Positions 6,652-29,332 of a DNA stretch of 44,603 bases are shown in pieces (position 1 is the stretch's first letter; the number at the start of each line of letters is the position of its first letter). The stretch spans positions 1 to 44,603 of the forward strand of contig JAFROT010000043.1 of assembly GCA_017429525.1 (NCBI GenBank). Reading direction: 5' to 3'. The stretch comes from Bacteroidaceae bacterium. GTDB taxonomy: Bacteria > Bacteroidota > Bacteroidia > Bacteroidales > Bacteroidaceae. Made by a program: the position numbers and the translations under genes. Below the pieces are notes generated by a model. It worked only from the letters and a program-made list of their open reading frames with translations. It ran no database searches and was not told the origin of the DNA.

Positions 6652-8586
6652 TCAGGGAGCCGACAGGCGGAGCGAGAATCCGTCCGAGGTCTGCTCAGTA
6701 GTGAGGTTGGCTCCGATGCTCTCTGCTCGTTCGCGCATGGACTGGAATCCAACGCCTGTCCCATCGCCTGGCACGCAAGTCCCTGCCGATGTGATGGAGA
6801 GATCGAGCCGTCCTGCGTTGTCGCGCGTCAGCTGAACAGCTACGTGTGCGTCAGTCTGGTGGACGATGACGTTGCCGATGGCTTCCTGCGCGATACGGTA
6901 GAACTGGTAGGCTATGGCTGGAGGTACATGCTCGTAGCCGCTGCCTTCGGCGCTGAACTGTATAACCGGTTTCTCGAGGTGGGACAGGTAGTGCCCGAGG
7001 GCTTCGTCAAGGTGTACGCCGCTCGTGAATTGAGGCGGCATCAGTTCGTGCGAGAGATTGCGCAACTGGGCTCGGAGGGTGGCGATCTGCTGGGTGGTTG
7101 CCGTGATGTCGGGGGCAGAGCCTCGCAGCTGCATCCCGATGGCAAGCAGGTCGTTGCACGCGCCGTCGTGTAGCTCGCGTGCGAAGCGTGCCCGCTCTTG
7201 CTCGATGCCTTCGACATATTTGCGGGTCTCGCGCATCAGCGCCTGTTGGCGGCGTCCCCTGAGCCACAGGATGAGCACGCCTAAAGACGCCAATAGGAGC
7301 CCCACGATGGCCAGAAGTGCGACGACGGTGCGCTGCGTCTGTGCCTGCTTGCGACTGAGACGGCTCAGCTGCAGTTCCTTCTCCATAACGCGGATGTTGG
7401 TGGTGAGCTGGTCCAGCTTGTCGGCGCTCTCGCGGCTGCGTACTGAGTCGCTGAGGACAGCGGCCTCAGCCTGCAGCTGGTAAGCCTCACGATAGCGCCC
7501 CATCCCGGCCAGCGCCCTGCCTTTGTAGGTCATCAGGCGGAATCGGGGAATCACCTGTTGCTGGCGCATGAGCGTGTCGAGACGTCCGATGGTTTGGAGT
7601 GCGTCCTCGTAGTCGCCTCGCTCGGTCTGAACGATCATCTTCGACTCGAGGATGCCAGCTGCCGCGGTGTTCGCCGGCGGGAGCTGCCTCGCGATGGCCT
7701 CGCCCTTCTGGAGGTAAGAGGCTGCCGCATCCCACTGCCGGGCATCGACAAGCGCCTTGAGTAGGTAGTTGATGACCTTCAGCTTGAGAGGCGTGCTGTT
7801 GGTGGAGTCGGCCTCGGCAAAAGTCGTGGTGAGGAGTTCGATGGCAGCGGCCGGGCGTTTGCTCATCTGCAGGGCGATGCCCTTGTTGGCTTGTGCCGAC
7901 AGGCGTTCTACGTCGTCTCCGGCACGCGCGGCACAGGCGATGGCCTTCTCGGCGTACTGCACCCCCTCGTCGTAGCGCCCCATCTCGACGTAGAGGACCG
8001 ACAGATTGTTGGCCAGATAGGCCTGGCTGGCCTCATCTTCGGCCTGAATGGCGCGCTCCAGTCCCAGCTGGTAGAAGATGGCGGCTGAGTCGTTGTTGCC
8101 AAGTCGTCGATAGGCGATGCCCGTGTTCCCGCACAGGATGGCATAGTCCTCATCCGAGCCAAAGCGTTGGAAAAGGGGGAGGGCCTTGCGTGCCCAGGCC
8201 ACGGAGCTGCGCATGTCGCCCAGGATGTTGTACGTAGCCGAAAGTTCGGCGTAGTACTGGGCCAGGACATCGTCAGCGGCACGCGGATTGACGCTCAGTC
8301 CTCGGTGGAGGCAGCTGACTGCCGAGTCGGGGCGGTCCATCATATTGTGGTGGCGCGACATCGCCAGCAGCACTTCAGCCTTGCTTTCTGCCGAGCGGGC
8401 ATGCAGGGCGAGGTCGTAGGCTTGGGTCAGCAGCGTCCAAGCCGAGTCGGCATCGTCGGCGTCGAGCATAAGCTCTGAGTCGCTGATGAGCTGTGCAACC
8501 TGTCGGCTGTCGGTCGTCGGCCTTTGGCAGGCGGCTATGAAGGAGACTGCGAGGAGCGGGACGAGGAACGAGGGATGTAGCTTCAT
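6652..8586 (-). CDS. TPR-containing sensor histidine kinase (HisKA_3 / HATPase_c)
   Basis: The 644-residue protein starts at MKLHPSFLVPLLAVSFIAAC, a signal sequence with a lipobox-like Cys20; the longer open frame has no signal-like start. Residues 30-395 form tetratricopeptide repeats (for example DYAILCGNTGIAYRRLGNNDSAAIFYQ), predicted periplasmic. A coiled stretch leads to one membrane helix (420-443). The cytoplasmic part has the H-box RFARELHDGACNDL with phospho-acceptor H473, then an ATPase domain with N-box residue N572 (AQEAIGN) and the glycine box GDGTGVGFQSMRERA (about 607-621). This is the architecture of NarX/DegS-like kinases that pair with NarL-type regulators, and the regulator gene follows 140 bp downstream. 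The ligand sensed by the TPR region is unknown. Confidence 0.9.
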   Translation of the reverse strand: MKLHPSFLVPLLAVSFIAACQRPTTDSRQVAQLISDSELMLDADDADSAWTLLTQAYDLALHARSAESKAEVLLAMSRHHNMMDRPDSAVSCLHRGLSVNPRAADDVLAQYYAELSATYNILGDMRSSVAWARKALPLFQRFGSDEDYAILCGNTGIAYRRLGNNDSAAIFYQLGLERAIQAEDEASQAYLANNLSVLYVEMGRYDEGVQYAEKAIACAARAGDDVERLSAQANKGIALQMSKRPAAAIELLTTTFAEADSTNSTPLKLKVINYLLKALVDARQWDAAASYLQKGEAIARQLPPANTAAAGILESKMIVQTERGDYEDALQTIGRLDTLMRQQQVIPRFRLMTYKGRALAGMGRYREAYQLQAEAAVLSDSVRSRESADKLDQLTTNIRVMEKELQLSRLSRKQAQTQRTVVALLAIVGLLLASLGVLILWLRGRRQQALMRETRKYVEGIEQERARFARELHDGACNDLLAIGMQLRGSAPDITATTQQIATLRAQLRNLSHELMPPQFTSGVHLDEALGHYLSHLEKPVIQFSAEGSGYEHVPPAIAYQFYRIAQEAIGNVIVHQTDAHVAVQLTRDNAGRLDLSITSAGTCVPGDGTGVGFQSMRERAESIGANLTTEQTSDGFSLRLSAP

Positions 8587-8659
8587 AGGCTTGTGGATTT
8601 GGGCAGTGAGTGACGGGGTTGGGCTTGAAGTTCGCTTGTGAACAGGAGGGCGGCACGTG

Positions 8660-11600
8660 TCAGTCGTCAAGCAGGCTCTCAGTGGTCACGACGGGCTGCT
8701 GGGCGCGGGCGTCGCAAGCCTTGTAGCGGATGTCGATGCTGCGTCGTTCGCCGGGGAAGAGAGTGAAGTAGTTGTCGCTATAGGTGGCGGGCAGGATCTG
8801 CTGTCCGTCAGTGCCCTTCAGGTTGAGACGGAGGAAGGGCGCTGGCGTGCTGCTCGTGTTGTGGAGGTCGACGTGTACGATGCAGTTGCCGTCGCGGTCG
8901 GAGGTGACGCTTGTCGCGGCTGTGACGCTGGCCTTAGGCAGCGAGAGCAGGGCACGGAGGTTGCCCTCTTCGCGACCGCGGATGTAGGTGTTTGAGGACA
9001 CGAGCTTGCGTCCCTGCAGGAGTTGCAGGCGCAGGAAGTAGACGTCGGATGGCGCTGAGGGGATGAGCGATGGCAGGTGGAGCCACGGCGTAGTGGTGTC
9101 GTCGGGGGCATCGAGTCGCTGTCGCCGTTCGGCCACTTTGCGTCCGCTCAGGTCGTAGATGGTGGCCACGGCCGTGAGGTGACGGCAGTCGCCCGCGAAA
9201 GCATTGACGATCTCGATGCTGTCGGTGAGGGCGTTCAGCTGGATGTGAAGCGGTTCGCACGCCTTCTTGGTACCGAAGTAGGCGGCGGTGGGCTCGAAGT
9301 AGTAGTCGTAGGTCTGCCATACCATCGACGGCCAGCAGGGATGGCTCATCCAGATGAGGAGTCCGGCGCGGCAACGGCTGGTCGACTCGTACATAGCGCG
9401 GTAGCCATCGTAGTTGATGAGCTGTGCACGGCGTGCGAACTGCCGGGCGCTGGCCGACGGGCCGAACGCCTTCTCGACGAGGTCGTTGAACTCGCTGGCG
9501 CGCTGTGCTCCCTGGAGCGTATAGTCGTGCTGTCCCCATTGGCGCGACTGCGGCCAGAGCGCGTCGGGCGAGAAGGTGCGGCTGAGGCTCTCGATGTTCA
9601 TCACGGCTGGCATGCCGCGCTCGCTGTGGATCTTGCCCGACTGCCGCTCGAAATAGACGCGCGCAGGCTGTGCGCAGTAGGGGCCGTGGCCAGTGATACA
9701 CTCGTCGGCCGAGCTGGGGATGTAGACATGGCCGGGCGTGAGCTCGCTGACGCAGGCGCGCAGGCCGCGGTCGATGCCCTCGGGCGGGAAGCCTTCGTTG
9801 CGGCCGCAGTAGAGGCCGATGGCGGCATAGCGGCGGATGCGGCGTACGTAGTCGCGCGCGTTGCGGAGAAAGAGGTCCTCGTCGTAGGGGTCGGGGCCGT
9901 CGGCAGGATTGGCCAACCAGAAGTCCTGCCAGATCATCATGCCGAGGCTGTCGCAGGCCTCATAGAACGCCTCGTCGCCGATCATGCCCACCCAGTTGCG
10001 GATCATCGTGCAGTGCATGTCGCGGTGGTAGGCGACGGCCGTAAGGTACTCGCGACTGCGATAGCAGAGGTTATGTTCGTCGAAGCCCCAGTTGCCGCCG
10101 AGAGGAACGAAGCGCCGCCCATTGATGTAGACGAGCAGGCTGTCCTCGACGTGCTTGTAAGTCATCTCTCGCAGACCCGCCTTGTACTTGAGGACAAGCT
10201 CGCCTCCCCTCGGGGAGGATGGGAGGGGGCCTCCGTTCCCGTTCATTATCCTATACCCCGCGTCATAGCGGTAAGGCTCGCCGTAGCCGTTAGGCCACCA
10301 GAGCCGGAAGTCGTGATGGGAGAGCTGAGGATAGCTGTTGGGGTCGAACGTCACCTCTTGCTCGGCGTGAGCCGGTATGGTGATGGGTTGGCTGAAACGT
10401 ACCTCGCCAATCCATCCCTCGAGCGTTCCGCTGTAGGGCGTATCGCCGTGGTTGCTGACGAAGACCGAAGGAGTCACGGAGAGCTGAGCGTGCCCGTCCG
10501 AACGTTTAGCCCGCCCCGAGCTTGTCGAGTGGGCTCTGTTGCTGCCAGGCTTGGCATCGTGAACGACGGTTCGGACGAAGGGGTCGGAGAGGGTGACGGA
10601 CGAACTGCTGGTGAGGTACACCTCGTTCCAGATGCCCGCGTTGCGGCCGCGCACGGTGGTGATCCAGTCCCATCCGATGGTGGCGTGGAAGGTAGGGTTG
10701 TCGGCGCCGAGGATGCCGCCGTTGAACTGCGTCGTGTTCTCGTTCTTCTCCTTCGGCGAACCGAAATGCTCGTTGGCGATGATCTCTACGGCCAGCACGT
10801 TGGTGCCTTCGACCAGCAAGTCGCTGACATCGAAACGGCCTCGCATGAAAGCCCCCTCGATGCGGCCGAGGCGGTGGCCGTTGAGGAAGACGTTGGCTTT
10901 CCAGTTGATGCCGTCGAAGTGGAGTTCGCGGAGCGTTCCGCTGGCGAGCAGTCGTGCGTCAACCTCGAACTCATCGCGGTACCAGAAGTTGGAGCGGAAG
11001 AACGATTCGGAGATCTGGTCGACCCAGTCGGCATAATTGGGGTCGGGCACGGCGCCGATGTTGACGTAGGACGTGAGCACGGTGCCTGGCACGGTCGCCC
11101 AGATCCAGTCTTTGGCGTCGTAGCCCCGGCTGGCAATCACTTCGCCCGTGGCCGCCACCTCCGAGGCGCGCTGCAGCTGCCATCGTCCACCGCTGAGGTC
11201 GATGCGGTCGGCGCGGCTGCGGGGCGCCTGGGCGTGCGGCTCGAAGGCTACGCCGCCCGTGCCCCACACCTCGAGTTCGGTCAGCGCATAGCGTCCCGAC
11301 GCCCCCGGCTCTTCCATGATGAGGGTGACGTAGCGGCCGTCGTCGCTCGTCTCAGCGTGCCAACGCGCGGGCTCCTCCAGCCAGTGAGGCGTGATATGGT
11401 CGATGGTGGCAGGAGCGCCCAAGTCCACGCGCAGCCATTGACGTCCGCCGCCGTCGCTCATCCAAGCGCTGGCGAAGGTCTGCGAGGGTTGCATCCACAG
11501 CTCCCTGCCCTCGGCGTCGAGGAAATAGAGCTCATGAAGGTCCCAGTAGGCAGCACCGTCCATCTCTAAGCGGAGGCGTAAGGTGCCGGCCTCTCCCCTG

Positions 11601-22424: not shown

Positions 22425-22923
22425 TTCACGCCTTCACCGTGCTTCTATTTAATTGAACAATAACGGCTTACAGGTGAATGATAAGGTGAAAGATAGGGTG
22501 AAGGGTGAAGGCAAAACCCGCTTTTTGGGGCTAAGACTCAATACGCGACTATAGGAACATACGGAGCATGGCCCTTCACAGAGCGGTCAGGTGGAATCGC
22601 AAGACCAGTAATTGTGGGTTGTCTCATGGGTGAGACAGCCTTGTCTCACCGGTGAGACAAATGCGTCTCATTAATGAGACAAGGCGATACGAATAGACGA
22701 AAGGGTGGCGACGAACGCACGAAAGAACGGCGACGAACGGGCGACAATGTCCGTGGGAGCAATTGAACGGGGGAGGCATGCGTGAACCACAGTGTGGTCT
22801 GAATTGTTAAAACGGGCGTTAATAAAGTTTAAATCCTTCACCTCTCACCCTATCTTTCACCCTGTCTTTCACCTGATATATGGCTGTATATTAGCTGAAT
22901 ACGCACTTATGTGAAGGCGTGAA
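22425..22923. repeat. Symmetric inverted-repeat element (about 500 bp)
   Basis: Two nested pairs of inverted arms share one centre. Inner arms 22471-22511 and 22835-22875 are 41 nt each and match with a few mismatches (core ggtgaaagatagggtga). Outer arms 22425-22437 and 22911-22923 are a perfect 13-bp pair (ttcacgccttcac / gtgaaggcgtgaa). Both are centred near 22673-22674. The inner arms consist of GGTGAA-like words spaced about 10-12 bp apart. No transposase and no obvious target-site duplication were seen. It could be a MITE-like element, a structured RNA or a regulatory island. Confidence 0.7.
22621..22750. repeat. 22-bp-period array: three palindromes then three degenerate units
   Basis: Three 16-bp units GTCTCA-N4-TGAGAC sit at 22621-22636, 22643-22658 and 22665-22680, exactly 22 bp apart, with centres tggg, ccgg and ttaa. 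Directly after them come three related units starting at 22683, 22707 and 22729 (ggcga..cgaac..acgaaag), again 22-24 bp apart. The regular spacing of about two helical turns resembles multimeric protein-binding sites (operators or iterons). Confidence 0.8.
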
Positions 22924-23053
22924 AGATAAATAGCGCAAAATACTTAGGTAAACAACAAAATATACACCAATATCCTATGCTTAAATAGCTTCTGGCAAAA
23001 CAGAAATATCATTGGGCGCAACTAATAGAACGTTCAGACAATTCAATTATCAG

Positions 23054-23097
23054 AAAACTCCGCTTCAGGGAAGGTGATCCTGCTGAAGCGGAGTTTC
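23054..23097 (-). terminator. Intrinsic terminator of the VTC-DUF4956-Cthe_2159 operon
   Basis: A 14-bp perfect stem (aaactccgcttcag / ctgaagcggagttt) with a 14-nt loop, ending in TTTTC on the minus strand, about 30 bp past the last stop. The plus strand also has a weaker T stretch, so it may work in both directions. Confidence 0.85.
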
Positions 23098-23125: not shown

Positions 23126-24427
23126 TTAGTACTTGAAGTTGCCGCTGACGGTGCCGCCTTCGCCTGGACGGAACACGTTGTCGAGCTTGATGCCTTGGCT
23201 CTTAGTGCCTGTGTTGGTGACGACGAGCGAGCCGCCGGTTGCGGTGAGGGTGGTGGCACGCACGCCGCGACTCTTGTCTCCTGTGGCGCTGACGGTGGTG
23301 GCGCCACCTGCGATGGTGAGCGTCTGGTCGGCTTTCAGGCCCGTGGCACGGTTCTCCTCGCCGGCTGTGTCGACGTAGACGCCAGCATCTACGGTGATGC
23401 CTACGGTGGGGGAGGTTGTCGTAGAACCAATGGTCAGGTTGCCGTCGCTGGCGATGGCCTTTGAGCCGTTGGCTGTAGTGGTGAGGTTGACGGTGACGGT
23501 GCCGTCGAGCAACTGCATGTGAGGCACGATGGAGGGGGCGGCTGCATCGGCGTCAAGACGGATGCCCTTGCTGTCTACGCTGGCAAGAGTGAGGTTGATG
23601 CTGCCGCCGTTCATGATGAACTGGCCGTTGAGGTCCTCGGCGGAGGTGGCGTCGGTCTCGACCTGTAGGCCGTCGGCTGCTGTGCCGCTGATGGTGATGT
23701 TGCCGCCATTCATCTGGAAGTACTCGCCGCAGTGGATGCCGTCGGCAGCAGCGTCGGTGATGGTGATATCGCCTACGCTCTTCTTCAGCAGCAGGTATTC
23801 GTTGGAACGGAGGGCGTGATTGGTCTTGCCGGCGATGGTGAGCGAGCCGCCACCTGACACCTCAAGGTGACCTTGGCAGTTGAGGGCTGCCTTGTGGGTG
23901 CCGCCTGCAGCGTCGGTGAGGCTGTTGACGGTGCCGTCCTCGATGATGAGGTCAATACGCTTGCCGCATTGGATGTCGAGGGCTGCGCCAGAGGTGCTGG
24001 TGAGGTTGACTCCATCGAGGTGGAACTTACATTTATAGGTGCCGTTGTAAGTGAGTGAGCCTGATGACGAAGAGCCCTTGAGGATGAACTCCTGCTCGGA
24101 GGACGTATTGGCGTTCGTGATGACGACATCGCCACCAGAGACGGTGGCTGTCACACCCTCGACATTCTCAGGAATGTCAACATCGACTGTCGTGCCAGAC
24201 CAAGTGATGGTGACGGGGTAGATTACGGTGATGCTGTCAATGGCGGCGGTGGCATAGCTGTCGCTGCCAACGGTGATGGTGGAGCCGGCAGCGGAGTAGG
24301 GGACGAGGGGTGCGTCGGCGATGGCGTAGCGCGTGCTTTCGCCGCCCTGCCATACGCGAATCCATTGTGCTTGCGTGGTGATCGCTCCTGCGCAGAGGAG
24401 GAGCAAAGAGAGGAATAACTTCTTCAT
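23126..24427 (-). CDS. Secreted beta-helix protein with Cthe_2159-type carbohydrate-binding domain
   Basis: The 433-residue protein has a signal peptide (KLFLSLLLLCAGAITTQAQ) and a short N-terminal beta module ending in AAIDSITV. From about residue 90 to the end it is a long right-handed beta-helix of the Cthe_2159 / PF14262 type: KCKFHLDGVNLTSTSGAALDIQCGKRIDLIIEDGTVNSLTD, then repeated GGxLTIxG, ADGIHCGEYFQMNGGNITISGTAADGLQVE and SKGIRLDADA. The founding member from Clostridium thermocellum binds cellulose and polygalacturonate (family knowledge). It is the last gene of a five-gene operon, 3 bp after the preceding stop, and is followed by a terminator. In other bacteria this family often sits beside VTC and DUF4956 genes, as it does here. 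Ligand unknown. Confidence 0.85.
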   Translation of the reverse strand: MKKLFLSLLLLCAGAITTQAQWIRVWQGGESTRYAIADAPLVPYSAAGSTITVGSDSYATAAIDSITVIYPVTITWSGTTVDVDIPENVEGVTATVSGGDVVITNANTSSEQEFILKGSSSSGSLTYNGTYKCKFHLDGVNLTSTSGAALDIQCGKRIDLIIEDGTVNSLTDAAGGTHKAALNCQGHLEVSGGGSLTIAGKTNHALRSNEYLLLKKSVGDITITDAAADGIHCGEYFQMNGGNITISGTAADGLQVETDATSAEDLNGQFIMNGGSINLTLASVDSKGIRLDADAAAPSIVPHMQLLDGTVTVNLTTTANGSKAIASDGNLTIGSTTTSPTVGITVDAGVYVDTAGEENRATGLKADQTLTIAGGATTVSATGDKSRGVRATTLTATGGSLVVTNTGTKSQGIKLDNVFRPGEGGTVSGNFKY

Positions 24428-24430
24428 GGC

Positions 24431-24880
24431 TTAGCGGATGACTTTAAGGGTTCGGTTGCCGAGGCGTGCGATATATAGGCCGCGAGGCAGGTCATAGAGT
24501 TGGACTTCGCTGCGGTTGCCGCTGACGTACTGCTGACGGACGACTTGTCCGTTGGCATTGTAGATGAGCAGGAGCCCCTGTCCGTCGGCGACGATGCGGC
24601 CAGCTTCGATGCAGAGGTCGGCGGCTGGGCGTGCAACGGACTGGATGCCTGTGGCCGTGGAGGTGAAGGCGAACTGGCTGAAGCTGGCCAGCGGCATGGA
24701 GGTCGTTGTGCCGTCGGCGGTCGTGACGACGATGTCAGCTCCCTCGAAGGTGATCTTGCGAACCGTCTTTAGGGCAATGCTCTGCTCCGCGGAGGTGGAG
24801 GTGAGCGTGAGGTAGTTGTAGGTGTCGGCCACTGCGAAGGCGGGGATGACCAACAGGATGATCGTGAGTAGGCGTTTCAT
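24431..24880 (-). CDS. Small secreted protein with a type IX-like C-terminal tail
   Basis: The 149-residue protein starts at MKRLLTIILLVIPAFAVA, a signal peptide; the 9 extra residues of the longer frame are not signal-like. The N-terminal half (SIALKTVRKITFEGADIVVTTADGTTTSMPLASFSQFAF) is a module common in secreted Bacteroidales proteins. The C-terminal half (from about 83: GRIVADGQGLLLIYNANGQVV...LPRGLYIARLGNRTLKVIR) has the GxYIxxxG pattern of type A sorting domains. It probably works with the beta-helix protein starting 3 bp downstream, whose N-terminal module is similar. No enzymatic motif is seen. Confidence 0.75.
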   Translation of the reverse strand: MKRLLTIILLVIPAFAVADTYNYLTLTSTSAEQSIALKTVRKITFEGADIVVTTADGTTTSMPLASFSQFAFTSTATGIQSVARPAADLCIEAGRIVADGQGLLLIYNANGQVVRQQYVSGNRSEVQLYDLPRGLYIARLGNRTLKVIR

Positions 24881-24946
24881 ACTTTCTGTTGTTGCTTGAA
24901 AATCCATCGGCGAGCGATGGTGTCTCCTGAAAAACTTGTTGTCTGT

Positions 24947-25960
24947 TTAGAATTTGAATTTATAGCCGATGCTGATGGCGTGGATGTTCTCGTTGCCGTC
25001 GTCGTCGTTCTCATGGGAGAAGATGTAGGCCGCCGAGAGCTTGTGCTGCTTTGTCACGGCATACTCCACGCCGGCCGAGACGCGGAATTTGTCGAAGTGC
25101 CAGCTTTCGCCAAGGTTGTTGAAACTCTCGGCATAGACGAAAGGCGACCACATCCACCCTTTCTTGTCCACTTCCAGGGTGAGGCGTGAGCGCAGGACAT
25201 GCAGTGTCTTGCTGCTTTTCTCCTTGATGGTTTCCTCGCCAGCGTCCTCCGAGGTGGGGCCTTCGACCTCGTCGTAGCTGTCGCCCAGCGCTCCGTCCAC
25301 GAGGTTGCCGCTGGCGTCGTAGCTGGGGTCGCGGTACTTGGTGGTGAGCTTGGTGCCGGTGCGTGTGCGGTTGACTTCCTTGCTGGGCACGATGGTGAAC
25401 TGATAGCGTTCTCTGAGGCTCAGCCTCAGCCACTTCCAGAACTTGTAGGTGCCGGTGGCATCGACGCTGAAGCGATGCTTGGCACGCCAGTAGGCGTCGG
25501 TGACGCGGGTGTAGTTCTTCACCTCTTTGTTGTAGCCTCTGTAGGTGTAGGCCGTGGTGCCGTCGTTGTAGGTGGGTGCCCCCATGAACTCAGTGAAGTC
25601 GGTGTTCTCGGCGGCGTTGGCAGCCCTATACTTCCATTCGTACTCAGTGGAGGATTTGGTGGCGTTTTCCACGGGATAGTGCTTCATGATGAAGGTGTAG
25701 CCCACGCCGAACTTCAAGTACTTGGAGGGTTTCCATCCGAGCCCCAGTCCGACATCGAAGCGGCTGGCCTCGTCGAACCATTCGTTGGTGCGGAAACCGG
25801 CATCCAGACTCAGGGAGACGTCGTGAGGCAGCAGTTTCGTGGCGCCGACTTCGGTCCACAGGCCTCCTGTGGTCTTGCCGGCATCATCGCTGACGTAGTC
25901 GTCCTGTGCTGCTGCCGCAACAGGCAGTGCCAGGAGGAGGGTGAAAATGAAGCGTTTCAT
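24947..25960 (-). CDS. DUF2490-like outer-membrane beta-barrel protein
   Basis: The 337-residue product starts at MKRFIFTLLLALPVAAAAQ, a signal peptide, which sets the start well inside the longer open frame. Alternating amphipathic strands (SLSLDAGFRTNEWFDEASRFDVGLGLGWKP, LKFGVGYTFIMKHYP, HRFSVDATGTYKFWKWLRLSLRERYQFT, RSRLTLEVDKKGWMWSPFVYAE) end in HAISIGYKFKF with the terminal aromatic of outer-membrane barrels. This matches the DUF2490 type, whose function is not established. It sits between the DUF4956 membrane protein (34 bp upstream) and two secreted proteins, so it may give the system an outer-membrane component. Confidence 0.8.
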   Translation of the reverse strand: MKRFIFTLLLALPVAAAAQDDYVSDDAGKTTGGLWTEVGATKLLPHDVSLSLDAGFRTNEWFDEASRFDVGLGLGWKPSKYLKFGVGYTFIMKHYPVENATKSSTEYEWKYRAANAAENTDFTEFMGAPTYNDGTTAYTYRGYNKEVKNYTRVTDAYWRAKHRFSVDATGTYKFWKWLRLSLRERYQFTIVPSKEVNRTRTGTKLTTKYRDPSYDASGNLVDGALGDSYDEVEGPTSEDAGEETIKEKSSKTLHVLRSRLTLEVDKKGWMWSPFVYAESFNNLGESWHFDKFRVSAGVEYAVTKQHKLSAAYIFSHENDDDGNENIHAISIGYKFKF

Positions 25961-25994
25961 TGTGCTTGATGAAGTTGACAGTTTAGGGTTCACA

Positions 25995-26711
25995 TTACAT
26001 CTCTTTGGGCATGCGGCCATAGCGGGCAATGCTGTTGGCCACGTCGGAGGGATCATCGTAGAAGATGCGGATGAGGGCAGAGTCCTTGAGGAAATCAATC
26101 ATCCCGACTTCGATGCGGTGGATCTTCAGTCCCGTGCGCTTCTCGAGGTCGGCAAGGAGTTCGGGGCGCTTCTCGGGAGAGATGAGGCTGACGTTGTCGT
26201 ACTTGATAATCTTCGAGGCCTCCTGGCTCATGACCTTCGAACTCTCGAAAATCCAGGCCATACAGATGAAGGCGATATTGACGAAGAGAATGGTGACGAT
26301 ACCGACTCCGTCCCAGTAGTCGGCCTTCGGATGGTAGTCGCCGTGGGCCACGGCATTGACCACGCTCAGCGCGATGAGCATGAATAGATAGGTCATCTCG
26401 CGGATGGGCACGGCTTCGGTGCGGAAACGCATGATACCGAAAATGGCGAACAAGCCCATGGCAGCGCCGATGTTCATGCCTTCGCCCTCCATGAGGCTGA
26501 CGAGCAGGAAGATGCTCATGGCCATGAGGATGAAGATGAAAGCGTAGTCACTGCGGCGGCTTCGGGGGAAGTAGAAGCAACGCGAAATGACGCTCACGAC
26601 GACCAGGTTGATCAGGAAGCGGATGAGCAGCGAGATGAATTGCTGGGGGTCGAAGAGCGTGACGCCGAACAGGTTGCCCAGCTCATAGTTTAGGTGTTGA
26701 ATAATCTCCAT
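25995..26711 (-). CDS. DUF4956 inner-membrane protein
   Basis: The 238-residue protein has four to five membrane helices in its first two thirds (about 25-48, 56-74, 80-96, 108-122, 136-155), with the conserved loop GIMRFRTEAVPIREMTYLF between helices. A soluble C-terminal domain follows (about 165-238: NVSLISPEKRPELLADLEKRTGLKIHRIEVGMIDFLKDSALIRIFY). This is the DUF4956 family, which commonly neighbours VTC-domain genes; its biochemical role is not known to me. It has no signal peptide and needs none. The polyphosphate polymerase-like gene lies 86 bp upstream, and the intergenic gap contains a short GTAAATG-type tandem repeat. Confidence 0.88.
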   Translation of the reverse strand: MEIIQHLNYELGNLFGVTLFDPQQFISLLIRFLINLVVVSVISRCFYFPRSRRSDYAFIFILMAMSIFLLVSLMEGEGMNIGAAMGLFAIFGIMRFRTEAVPIREMTYLFMLIALSVVNAVAHGDYHPKADYWDGVGIVTILFVNIAFICMAWIFESSKVMSQEASKIIKYDNVSLISPEKRPELLADLEKRTGLKIHRIEVGMIDFLKDSALIRIFYDDPSDVANSIARYGRMPKEM

Positions 26712-26797
26712 AAGAATGGTACTATTTTTTTATTGATGATTAGCTTTTCTGTAAATGGTAAATAGTAAATGGTAATGGTTGGCTCATGTGAGCGGGG

Positions 26798-27571
26798 CTA
26801 AGCTTCGATGAGCTTGCGAATCTTGACGAGCTTCGGCTTGAAGAGGTTGCGCTTGAGGGCGTCGTTGGTCATCACACTGCCGATGCAGTATTTCGAGAAG
26901 CCCGAGGGTTTGATGCGAAGCTGTCTCAGCAGGTCGAGGATGGGCGAGAAGACGTTGCCGTCGCGCTTGAGCTCGATGATGACCAGCTCGCCCGTCTCGG
27001 CGTCGTTTGCGGTCTCGAAATTGTGGAAGCAGACATTGAAGTCGATGGTCAGGCGTTCCGTCTTGCCATAGTTGACAAGCGTGATGCGCTGGAAGCGGTT
27101 CTGCACCGTCGGGATGATCTCGTCGAAGGTAGCTCCTGTGAGTCCTTGGATGAAGGGCGTTCCGCCTGCCTCGATGACGTCTCGTCGATCCTGCGAAGGT
27201 ACGGTGATGCGCTTCTTCTTCGTACGGCCGTGGTTATTCTTGGTCTTCACCTCGAGGAACGTCAGGTCGCTATCTAAATACGTGCGCACGCGAATCTTCT
27301 GTCGTGGAGCACGCGCATTGTGGTGCTCAAGGAAGAAGCGGTGTTCGGGCGTGTCCCAGTAGATGGTGCGATAGGCCGCTATGCGCTTGTCTTCAATCTG
27401 CTGGGCATAATACTGCCCTTGCGCCAACCTCAGGAGCTCGGCCAGCTTGCGTTTGCTGGTGACGAATTTGGTGTCGGTGCGATTCATGAGCTTGATACCG
27501 CTCATCTCGTCGAGCGAGATGGGAGTGAGCTGCGCAAGCCACTGACGTATGTTTTCGTCTACGTTAGTCAT
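26798..27571 (-). CDS. VTC-domain polyphosphate polymerase-like protein
   Basis: The 257-residue protein matches the VTC fold (the catalytic domain of yeast Vtc4, which makes polyphosphate from ATP). The tunnel motifs are present: N30-R-T-D-T-K-F (K35), the basic strand KIRVRTY (92-98), the metal/phosphate triad ExKxK (E107, K109, K111), the basic patch KKKR (118-121) and a late acidic strand ELVIIELKRDG. It has no membrane segment or signal peptide, so it acts in the cytoplasm, probably at the membrane with DUF4956. It heads a minus-strand operon ending in the beta-helix protein. Polyphosphate synthesis is inferred from the family; bacterial VTC proteins are poorly characterised. Confidence 0.88.
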   Translation of the reverse strand: MTNVDENIRQWLAQLTPISLDEMSGIKLMNRTDTKFVTSKRKLAELLRLAQGQYYAQQIEDKRIAAYRTIYWDTPEHRFFLEHHNARAPRQKIRVRTYLDSDLTFLEVKTKNNHGRTKKKRITVPSQDRRDVIEAGGTPFIQGLTGATFDEIIPTVQNRFQRITLVNYGKTERLTIDFNVCFHNFETANDAETGELVIIELKRDGNVFSPILDLLRQLRIKPSGFSKYCIGSVMTNDALKRNLFKPKLVKIRKLIEA

Positions 27572-27592: not shown

Positions 27593-27600
27593 CAAATATA
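27593..27600 (-). promoter_or_regulatory. -7 element of the VTC operon promoter
   Basis: TATATTTG on the minus strand, 21 bp before the VTC ATG. No clear TTTG at -33. Confidence 0.5.
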
Positions 27601-27764: not shown

Positions 27765-28325
27765 ATGGCAGAATATAAAGAAATCCTCTCCGACGCCGAG
27801 GAGCGCATGGAAGAGGCCGTGATGTACCTGGACGAAGCCCTTTCGCACATCCGTGCGGGCAAGGCCAACGTGAAACTGCTGGACGGCATCCGTGTCGACA
27901 ACTATGGCGCGATGGTGCCCATCAACCAGTGCGCTGCCGTCACGACACCTGACGCTCGTACCATCGCCATCAAGCCTTGGGACAAGACGATGTTCAAGGT
28001 AATTGAGAAAGCGATCATCAACAGCGATCTGGGTATAATGCCTGAGAACAATGGAGAAATCATCCGCATCGGCATTCCACCCCTCACCGAGGAGCGCCGT
28101 AAGCAACTCGTGAAACAGTGCGGCAAGGAGGTTGAGCAAGCCAAGGTGAGCGTGCGCAACGCTCGTCGTGATGGCATCGAAGCCCTCAAGAAAGCGGTGA
28201 AAGACGGCCTGAGCGAAGATTTCCAGAAGGACGGCGAGAGCGAACTCCAGAAGAAGCATGACAAGTTTGTCAAGCAAATCGACGAACTGCTTGCCGCTAA
28301 GGAAAAGGAAATCATGACAGTGTAA
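27765..28325 (+). CDS. frr: Ribosome recycling factor
   Basis: The 186-residue protein has the normal length for RRF and opens with [30 protein letters not shown] (first long helix). The conserved central part ([58 protein letters not shown]) and the C-terminal helix ([19 protein letters not shown]...EKEIMTV) follow. It splits post-termination ribosomes together with EF-G. I start at MAEYKE because the longer frame begins ahead of the promoter element. rsgA follows after 5 bp, so two ribosome-related genes share a transcript. Confidence 0.97.
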
Positions 28326-28330
28326 AGCCC

Positions 28331-29332
28331 TTGACTGGACTTGTCATTCGAAATACAGGGAGCTGGTACGACGTCCAAACGGACGACGGCCAGCTCTTTG
28401 CGTGTAAGGTGAAAGGCAACTTTCGCCTCCGTGGCATCCGCAGTACGAATCCCGTAGCCGTCGGCGACCGCGTGGATATCAAGCCTACAGTGGCGGCTGC
28501 TGAGGCCGAAAATGACCCATTGGCACTTCCGACGGCTCTCATCACCGAGATACACGACCGTAGCAACTATATCATCCGCAGAGCCTCTAACCTCTCTAAG
28601 CAGAGCCATATCATTGCAGCCAATGTGGATCTGGCTGGACTCGTCGTCACCATCACTCATCCCGAGACATCGACCACTTTCATCGATCGTTTCCTCGCTA
28701 CGGCCGAAGCCTACCGCGTGCCCGTGGCCCTTATTTTTAATAAGGTAGACCTCTATGGCGATGATGAGCTCCGCTACCTTGAAGGCATTATGGCGCTCTA
28801 TCGTTACCTTGGCTATAGTTGCTATGCCGTTTCGGCCAAGACGGGTGAGGGTATTGATGCGCTAACGGCTGACCTGCGGGGTAAGACAACGCTCTTCAGC
28901 GGCAATAGCGGTGTCGGCAAGAGTACGCTCCTCAACTGCCTCGTCCCTGAGGCGTGTGCTAAGACCGCTGAAATCAGCATCGCCCATGACCAGGGTCAGC
29001 ACACGACTACTTTCTCTGAGATGTACGACCTTCCGATGGCAGGCTTGGATACGGAGCGGGCAGCGGATTGTAATCCAGGCCGTATCATCGACACACCAGG
29101 TATCCGAGGCTTCGGAACCTTCGATTTTGAACGCGAAGAAGTGTCGCATTACTTCCGCGAGATTTTCCAGATTGGACGCGAATGTCGCTTTTCCAATTGC
29201 ACGCACACCCATGAGCCTGGTTGTGCCGTAACGAAAGCTCTCGACAACCATGAGATTGCCGAGAGCCGTTATCAGTCTTATCTCTCGATGCTCGACGATA
29301 AGGACGAGCGCAAGTACCGCGAACGTTTCTGA
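28331..29332 (+). CDS. rsgA: Ribosome small subunit-dependent GTPase A
   Basis: The 333-residue protein has an N-terminal OB-fold ([26 protein letters not shown]) and a circularly permuted GTPase domain. G4 (NKVDLY) precedes G1 (GNSGVGKST, 191-199) and G3 (DTPGIR). The C-terminal zinc knuckle has C285, C290, H292 and C298. RsgA checks late 30S subunit assembly. The start is a TTG, 5 bp after the frr stop; the only nearby ATG belongs to the end of frr. Expression is therefore likely coupled to frr. Confidence 0.95.

Follow-up and report, generated by a model that had tools for sequence, protein, structure and literature searches.

A VTC–DUF4956 operon of a Bacteroidaceae bacterium as a possible envelope-spanning polyphosphate synthesis-and-export unit

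We analysed a 44,603-base stretch of DNA (the window), which is the entire contig JAFROT010000043.1 of a draft genome (GCA_017429525.1; 3.3 Mb, 86% complete) of a Bacteroidaceae bacterium, and focused on five consecutive open reading frames (ORFs) that an earlier note had described as an operon with its own promoter element and terminator. They encode a VTC-family enzyme, a DUF4956 membrane protein, a DUF2490 barrel, a small secreted protein and a Cthe_2159 beta-helix (Table 1). The positions were borne out: with an inner ATG taken as the start of the DUF2490 (25960) and small-protein (24880) genes, all five lie on the minus strand, separated by gaps of 86, 34, 66 and 3 nt, a layout from which we infer co-transcription. 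The arrangement is more than chance because the gene order recurs across many genera (see below). The terminator was also substantiated; its hairpin is near-perfect, and none of 200 shuffles was as stable as the 91-nt stretch that contains it (–34.7 kcal/mol). The promoter fared less well. One TATATTTG, which we take to be a promoter motif of the TANNTTTG type, precedes the VTC gene, but the pattern occurs 17 times in the window against 11.5 expected, and the element is therefore a candidate only.

Table 1. Features of the operon, listed in the direction of transcription.
Feature	Position	Strand	Evidence
Candidate TANNTTTG-type –7 element	27593..27600	–	21 nt 5' of VTC start; pattern near chance across window
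VTC (PF09359), polyphosphate-polymerase-type tunnel enzyme, 257 aa	26798..27571	–	103.8 bits (cut-off 23)
DUF4956 (PF16316) membrane protein, 238 aa	25995..26711	–	170.5 bits (cut-off 30.6)
DUF2490 (PF10677) predicted outer-membrane barrel, 337 aa	24947..25960	–	95.9 bits (cut-off 29.8)
Small secreted protein with candidate type IX secretion system (T9SS) type A tail, 149 aa	24431..24880	–	TIGR04183 29.6 bits (cut-off 23)
Cthe_2159 (PF14262) beta-helix, 433 aa	23126..24427	–	116.4 bits (cut-off 25.8); PDB 4peu, E 2e-7
Intrinsic terminator hairpin closing the operon	~23053-23097	–	z –6.1

The reading of the first gene product as a polymerase-type VTC was upheld by its Pfam score, by a profile match to yeast Vtc4 and by its key residues. 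A profile of 27 VTC proteins matched seven PDB sequences (E up to 1), all of them VTC subunits, with Vtc4 the best (3g3q, 6e-10). Yeast positions were mapped through this profile alignment onto 151 distinct VTC sequences of at least 190 aa (out of 157 gathered); R94, R96, E200 and K227, corresponding to Vtc4 R264, R266, E426 and K458, were invariant in 151/151, as were K109 and K202. In yeast, R264A/R266A/E426N inactivated Vtc4 (PMC9911596; this and the other papers cited were available as excerpts, to which our statements from them are limited). Vtc4 differs from tunnel phosphatases in that four basic residues replace Glu-2, Glu-4, Glu-90 and Glu-171 of AtTTM3 (PMC4641920). At these sites the window's enzyme has three basic residues (R31, K109, K202) and one acidic (D33), where the mapping of R31, D33 and K109 is presumptive, and its residues appear to lean to the polymerase type. 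The key residues are those of the tunnel polymerase domain of yeast VTC (Vtc1/Vtc3/Vtc4), a polymerase and translocase; unlike yeast VTC, the window's 257-aa protein matched no second Pfam domain at E up to 1, neither SPX nor a fused membrane domain. PPK1 (PF02503) was not matched in the 86% complete genome of the window. Among 197 genomes of its class, itself included (the class sample), PPK1 was matched in 157, and two of the five other members of the window's family in that sample (G155, G179) had no match. PPK1 was also present in 73 of the 95 class genomes with VTC. Here and below, genome counts are complete and locations of PPK1, CotH and Cthe_2159 are those among the matches listed.

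The second gene product belongs to a family in which all 65 proteins of our alignment match PF16316. Its AlphaFold model (mean pLDDT 83) has about five membrane helices and a C-terminal alpha/beta domain. Loop charges predict an N-out/C-in orientation, which would place on the cytosolic side both the C-terminal domain and a basic loop that carries a near-invariant R-x-R-T motif. The pairing of a polymerase with a membrane partner that is predicted to turn basic residues towards it is shared with yeast VTC. In contrast to yeast, the partner is DUF4956, for which no likeness to the Vtc1-type domain was found, and the bacterial operon adds an outer-membrane barrel and secreted partners. A relation to MgtC (PF02308) was considered and rejected: hhalign of 65 DUF4956 against seven MgtC sequences gave 0.6% probability, though both profiles are shallow and a distant kinship is possible.

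VTC and DUF4956 form a real two-gene module. In the class sample, VTC was found in 95 genomes and DUF4956 in 108; all 95 VTC genomes carry DUF4956, and 13 have DUF4956 without VTC. At 101 of the 107 VTC loci (counted after removal of one row, which was the second fragment of a split gene in G101), DUF4956 lies within 462 bp on the same strand, with VTC first in 94, as expected from the claim that the two recur together. Among 14 control genomes, the two families hit an identical set of three (Bacteroides ihuae, Corynebacterium glutamicum and Methanosarcina acetivorans); B. ihuae also had Cthe_2159 and no CotH match. For the neighbourhoods, 40 stretches were fetched and their genes clustered with those of the window: 37 were VTC stretches of the class sample, and three were Cthe_2159 places, two more in the window's own genome and one in G063. 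In all locus comparisons ORFs were called mechanically, which is why VTC was missed in L288 and L290. Counting the window, there were 38 VTC stretches; on the VTC strand and no more than 6 kb away, these held DUF4956 in 38, a small lipoprotein in 22, CotH in 16, a repeat protein in 14 and Cthe_2159 in two. A barrel of the DUF2490 cluster was present in at least 25, a lower bound because that of the window itself did not join the cluster. The recurring Bacteroidota order is CotH – small lipoprotein – secreted repeat protein – VTC – DUF4956 – barrel, seldom complete; the single CotH checked in such an operon carries a T9SS tail.

Wider sampling was obtained by scanning named genomes with a Deinococcus-led DUF4956 alignment, from which the best 80 of 519 relatives were taken; Firmicutes and Actinomycetota lay outside its coverage, and some loci are near-duplicates (L215/L216, the Larkinella loci). 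By record title, 64 loci were from Bacteroidota, 13 from Gammaproteobacteria and three from elsewhere. The Bacteroidota loci held VTC in 60, a DUF2490 barrel in 44, CotH in 30 and Cthe_2159 in none. All six genes of the recurring order were present in 12 of the 64, and 46 had one or more of the three that precede VTC in it (CotH, lipoprotein, repeat protein). The DUF2490 barrel, which the note had pointed out in the window's locus, is common there and no peculiarity: in 44/64 it directly follows DUF4956. At the 13 gammaproteobacterial loci, VTC was found in 12, CotH in 11 and DUF2490 in none; the same place after DUF4956 was occupied in 12 by a Porin_O_P-like barrel. The exceptions are L232, which is cut by a contig end, and L259, which has VTC and neither CotH nor porin. 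Pfam confirmed PF07396 (phosphate-selective porin O and P; E 2e-47 to 3e-39) for two of the 12 porins and for one Pseudoalteromonas plasmid locus; the other ten were assigned by clustering. On the plasmid of Pseudoalteromonas sp. CuT4-3 (L206:7661-9657), a C-terminal piece of 104 aa is all that is left of VTC ahead of DUF4956 and a Porin_O_P gene, with a lamin-tail gene immediately upstream.

The model of the window's DUF2490 protein is a narrow barrel of 11 strands by DSSP (11-12; the KdgM-type fold has 12), and its lumen is net basic (mean K+R 17.4 vs D+E 11.8). Its top VIA matches were acidic-oligosaccharide porins, with Z tied with autotransporter barrels; to KdgM, NanC and VhGalP it has 10-13% identity, and DUF2490 is a Pfam family of its own. 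OprP and OprO, porins for phosphate and polyphosphate, are of the PF07396 type that sits after DUF4956 in Gammaproteobacteria; the window's operon has no such porin, and DUF2490 is a different Pfam family, though weak shared matches to general barrel models leave a distant kinship possible.

Neighbours of a phosphate type were seen on plasmids. On alphaproteobacterial plasmids of Shinella, Aminobacter and Nitratireductor (3/3 viewed, of 12 found), DUF4956 and VTC are followed by a phytase-like protein, and in Nitratireductor an inorganic phosphate transporter lies between VTC and the phytase-like gene. In Deinococcus sp. QL22, a phosphonate transporter cluster begins 1.2 kb after DUF4956.

We asked how the window's own version relates to this module, using 151 genomes of its family. 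DUF4956 was found in 89, Cthe_2159 in 90 and both in 83. At least 70 of the 89 DUF4956 loci have Cthe_2159 no more than 5 kb away: in 69 it lies downstream at 986-2250 bp in the same orientation, and in one it lies upstream. All 19 remaining loci were fetched and four more had a downstream Cthe_2159, giving 74/89. Of the other 15, five run into the contig end within 1.9 kb, one (L203) carries CotH as the gene immediately behind DUF4956, and the remaining nine carry neither Cthe_2159 nor CotH on that strand; in L198 a Cthe_2159 gene sits on the opposite strand just past 5 kb. Closer examination covered 42 loci, 23 picked as near Cthe_2159 and 19 as not near, so that the unselected rate comes from the 89 loci and the 19-locus follow-up only. 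VTC and DUF4956 were present in all 42, the barrel was next in 40, and CotH was found in one (L203). The exact five-gene order was seen in 19/42, two of these with an extra Cthe_2159 ORF (in L200 this is probably a single gene that is split). Since the five-gene set and a nearby Cthe_2159 recur across family loci, the set is a conserved lineage variant. By contrast, Cthe_2159 was near DUF4956 in 0/80 loci of the scan, and outside the window's family it was found in one of 191 class genomes (G063). The claim that VTC–DUF4956–Cthe_2159 neighbourhoods recur in other bacteria was thus right for VTC–DUF4956, which is widespread and often accompanied by CotH, and has to be narrowed, within the groups sampled, to the window's family for Cthe_2159. 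We conclude that the surface end of the module is swapped in this family: Cthe_2159 usually lies near DUF4956 and CotH is mostly off the operon.

The connection with CotH nevertheless persists at the level of genomes. CotH was found in 93 of the 95 VTC class genomes vs 21 of 102 others, and in the family in 82/89 genomes with DUF4956 vs 23/62 without; these genome-level links, like the Fisher tests on them, ignore relatedness. No CotH was matched by Pfam among the five operon proteins, as the note had said, but the genome is not devoid of it: there are nine matches, one place among those listed being on contig C8. Because the link survives where the genes are unlinked, it hints that CotH and VTC–DUF4956 function in trans.

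The secreted parts of the operon bear on the surface end. The tail of the small protein, proposed to be type IX-like, passes the NCBIfam model and misses the Pfam cut-off for the same domain (PF18962, 21.5 of 27); three of four relatives tested pass TIGR04183. A profile of 25 small proteins matched 12 of 31 neighbouring Cthe_2159 ORFs, chiefly at the N-terminus, with the window's own Cthe_2159 unmatched, and the two genes overlap by 4 nt in 11/20 pairs. The window's Cthe_2159 has a signal peptide and no lipobox, both judged by eye, and neither Pfam nor NCBIfam matched a T9SS tail on it. Tail and beta-helix therefore appear, from sequence, to be divided between two coupled genes, and the description of the last gene as a surface beta-helix stands for the family and less firmly for the placement. 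The protein belongs to the same Pfam family as Cthe_2159 of Clostridium thermocellum, which we take to be the protein in PDB 4peu, and differs in lying in an operon with VTC, DUF4956 and DUF2490. The founder of the family binds cellulose and polygalacturonic acid (PMC6712302). Cthe_2159 and CotH domains are both among the domains reported as unique to anaerobic rumen fungi (PMC6712302), and the two may be linked there too.

Related arrangements were seen elsewhere. On contig C16 of the window's genome (L001:743-3342), a gene for a relative of the small tail protein stands immediately before that for a 726-aa Cthe_2159 protein, with no VTC in the fetched stretch; this pair looks like a self-standing unit. 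In G063 (L105), a 167-aa gene of unassigned kind takes the place of the small tail protein before Cthe_2159. In L067, VTC–DUF4956–DUF2490–Cthe_2159 is followed by a His_kinase gene paired with a LytTR response regulator gene (7858-9785), and genes of these two clusters also adjoin the Cthe_2159 gene in L105. The operon itself is divergent from genes for what are presumably a ribosome-recycling-factor-like protein (186 aa) and an RsgA-like GTPase (window 27765-29332), and similar-sized genes occupy the divergent position in ~10 loci of the family. Several GTCTCA/TGAGAC palindromes lie in a row between genes downstream of the operon (22620-22690).

The closest described counterpart in Gram-positives is the set of Pel accessory genes CotH–polymerase–DUF4956 (PMC7112168; SIR_1592-1594 of Streptococcus intermedius, PMC12345266), in which polymerase and membrane protein are of the kinds found here. 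SIR_1592, reported to have membrane segments and a C-terminal ACT domain (PMC12345266), is taken here as the DUF4956 of S. intermedius. Many relatives of the window's operon likewise have a CotH partner; unlike the trio, diderm versions often have a barrel, and the window's has Cthe_2159 and no CotH. The authors of that study report that they did not find the trio together outside Pel loci (PMC12345266). This does not hold in Deinococcus: a plasmid of Deinococcus taeanensis carries CotH–VTC–DUF4956, and no gene named as Pel lies within 8 kb of it (16.6 kb annotated). The trio was also present at 11 gammaproteobacterial and 30 Bacteroidota scan loci, counted irrespective of Pel genes.

We tentatively favour the reading, which we hold at somewhat less than an even chance, that the operon is an envelope-spanning unit for synthesis and export of polyphosphate (a polyanion), resembling yeast VTC but split into separate proteins. 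In the cytosol, VTC would use ATP to build the chain; DUF4956 would dock VTC and form or gate a path through the inner membrane, and synthesis would drive export, as in a trans-envelope split version of yeast VTC. The chain might then exit via the narrow basic DUF2490 barrel, or via a phosphate/polyphosphate-type porin in Gammaproteobacteria, and outside would meet a secreted partner that can be exchanged, which in many bacteria is a CotH-family kinase and in this lineage the Cthe_2159 beta-helix. Such a split machine would be consistent with a polymerase-type VTC, with basic loops on the cytosolic side of the membrane partner, with an outer-membrane pore of basic or phosphate type, and with a secreted partner of either a kinase or a polyanion-binding kind. 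The strongest support comes from the barrel position, which in two phyla is taken by different families, one of them of a kind selective for phosphate or polyphosphate; the VTC–DUF4956 adjacency, the invariant Vtc4 residues, the basic lumen, the genome-level CotH link and the phosphate-type neighbours on the three alphaproteobacterial plasmids viewed add to it. Two points weigh on the other side. Porin_O_P porins are known for uptake, and in S. intermedius the excerpt gives no reported change upon deletion of the polymerase (PMC12345266). Deletions of the membrane protein and CotH altered Pel and aggregation, and the rise in Pel and fall in aggregation without SIR_1592 (PMC12345266) we count in favour of export. 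The bolder version, in which the operon is a dedicated secretion machine (split VTC polymerase, membrane channel, outer-membrane pore) whose product serves as phosphate source or ionic cross-linker for CotH kinases, otherwise without extracellular ATP, or for Cthe_2159 beta-helices, is unlikely at present.

The direction of transport might also be reversed, with the barrel taking up phosphate or short chains, DUF4956 sensing or passing them and VTC laying down a cytosolic store. The Porin_O_P genes in Gammaproteobacteria, the phytase-like proteins and the Nitratireductor transporter on the alphaproteobacterial plasmids, and the phosphonate transporter cluster of Deinococcus sp. QL22 would all suit such import; however, it leaves unexplained the CotH or Cthe_2159 partner and the retention of PPK1 in most VTC genomes, and yeast VTC sends its chain from the cytosol into the vacuole (PMC9911596), so that we regard it as not very likely. 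Decoration of surface glycans or proteins, in which VTC and DUF4956 supply a phosphate donor, CotH-type kinases phosphorylate matrix polymers outside and Cthe_2159 binds acidic glycan, would account for the CotH link where the genes are unlinked, for the Gram-positive loci that have the trio next to Pel genes (PMC7112168, PMC12345266) and for polygalacturonic acid binding by the Cthe_2159 founder (PMC6712302). With a link that ignores relatedness, an operon here that lacks CotH and a polymerase for which the S. intermedius excerpt gives no phenotype (PMC12345266), it is rather unlikely. Finally, VTC could be a tunnel phosphatase or NTPase paired with DUF4956 in signalling or homeostasis, the barrel and secreted genes being passengers in a locus that is inherited whole. 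Phosphatases occur among related tunnel enzymes (PMC4641920), the alpha/beta domain of DUF4956 is putatively of a kind used in sensors, and 13 genomes have DUF4956 without VTC; yet the lean of the VTC residues to the polymerase type, and a barrel place filled by two Pfam families in two phyla, which is unexpected for passengers, make this improbable.

In the literature on DUF4956, DUF2490, Cthe_2159 and CotH with polyphosphate (mostly open-access text, few preprints), no description of such a trans-envelope set was found. To our knowledge, the route of polyphosphate to the bacterial surface and the phosphate donor of extracellular CotH-type kinases are open questions, and the module allows both to be approached through one set of genes, in commensal and marine bacteria that can be cultured. 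In two phyla the position after DUF4956 has recruited different barrel families, and the trio in Deinococcus runs counter to its reported confinement to Pel loci. If the export reading is true, the module would be a bacterial counterpart of the yeast polyphosphate machine, with an exchangeable barrel and an exchangeable surface partner.

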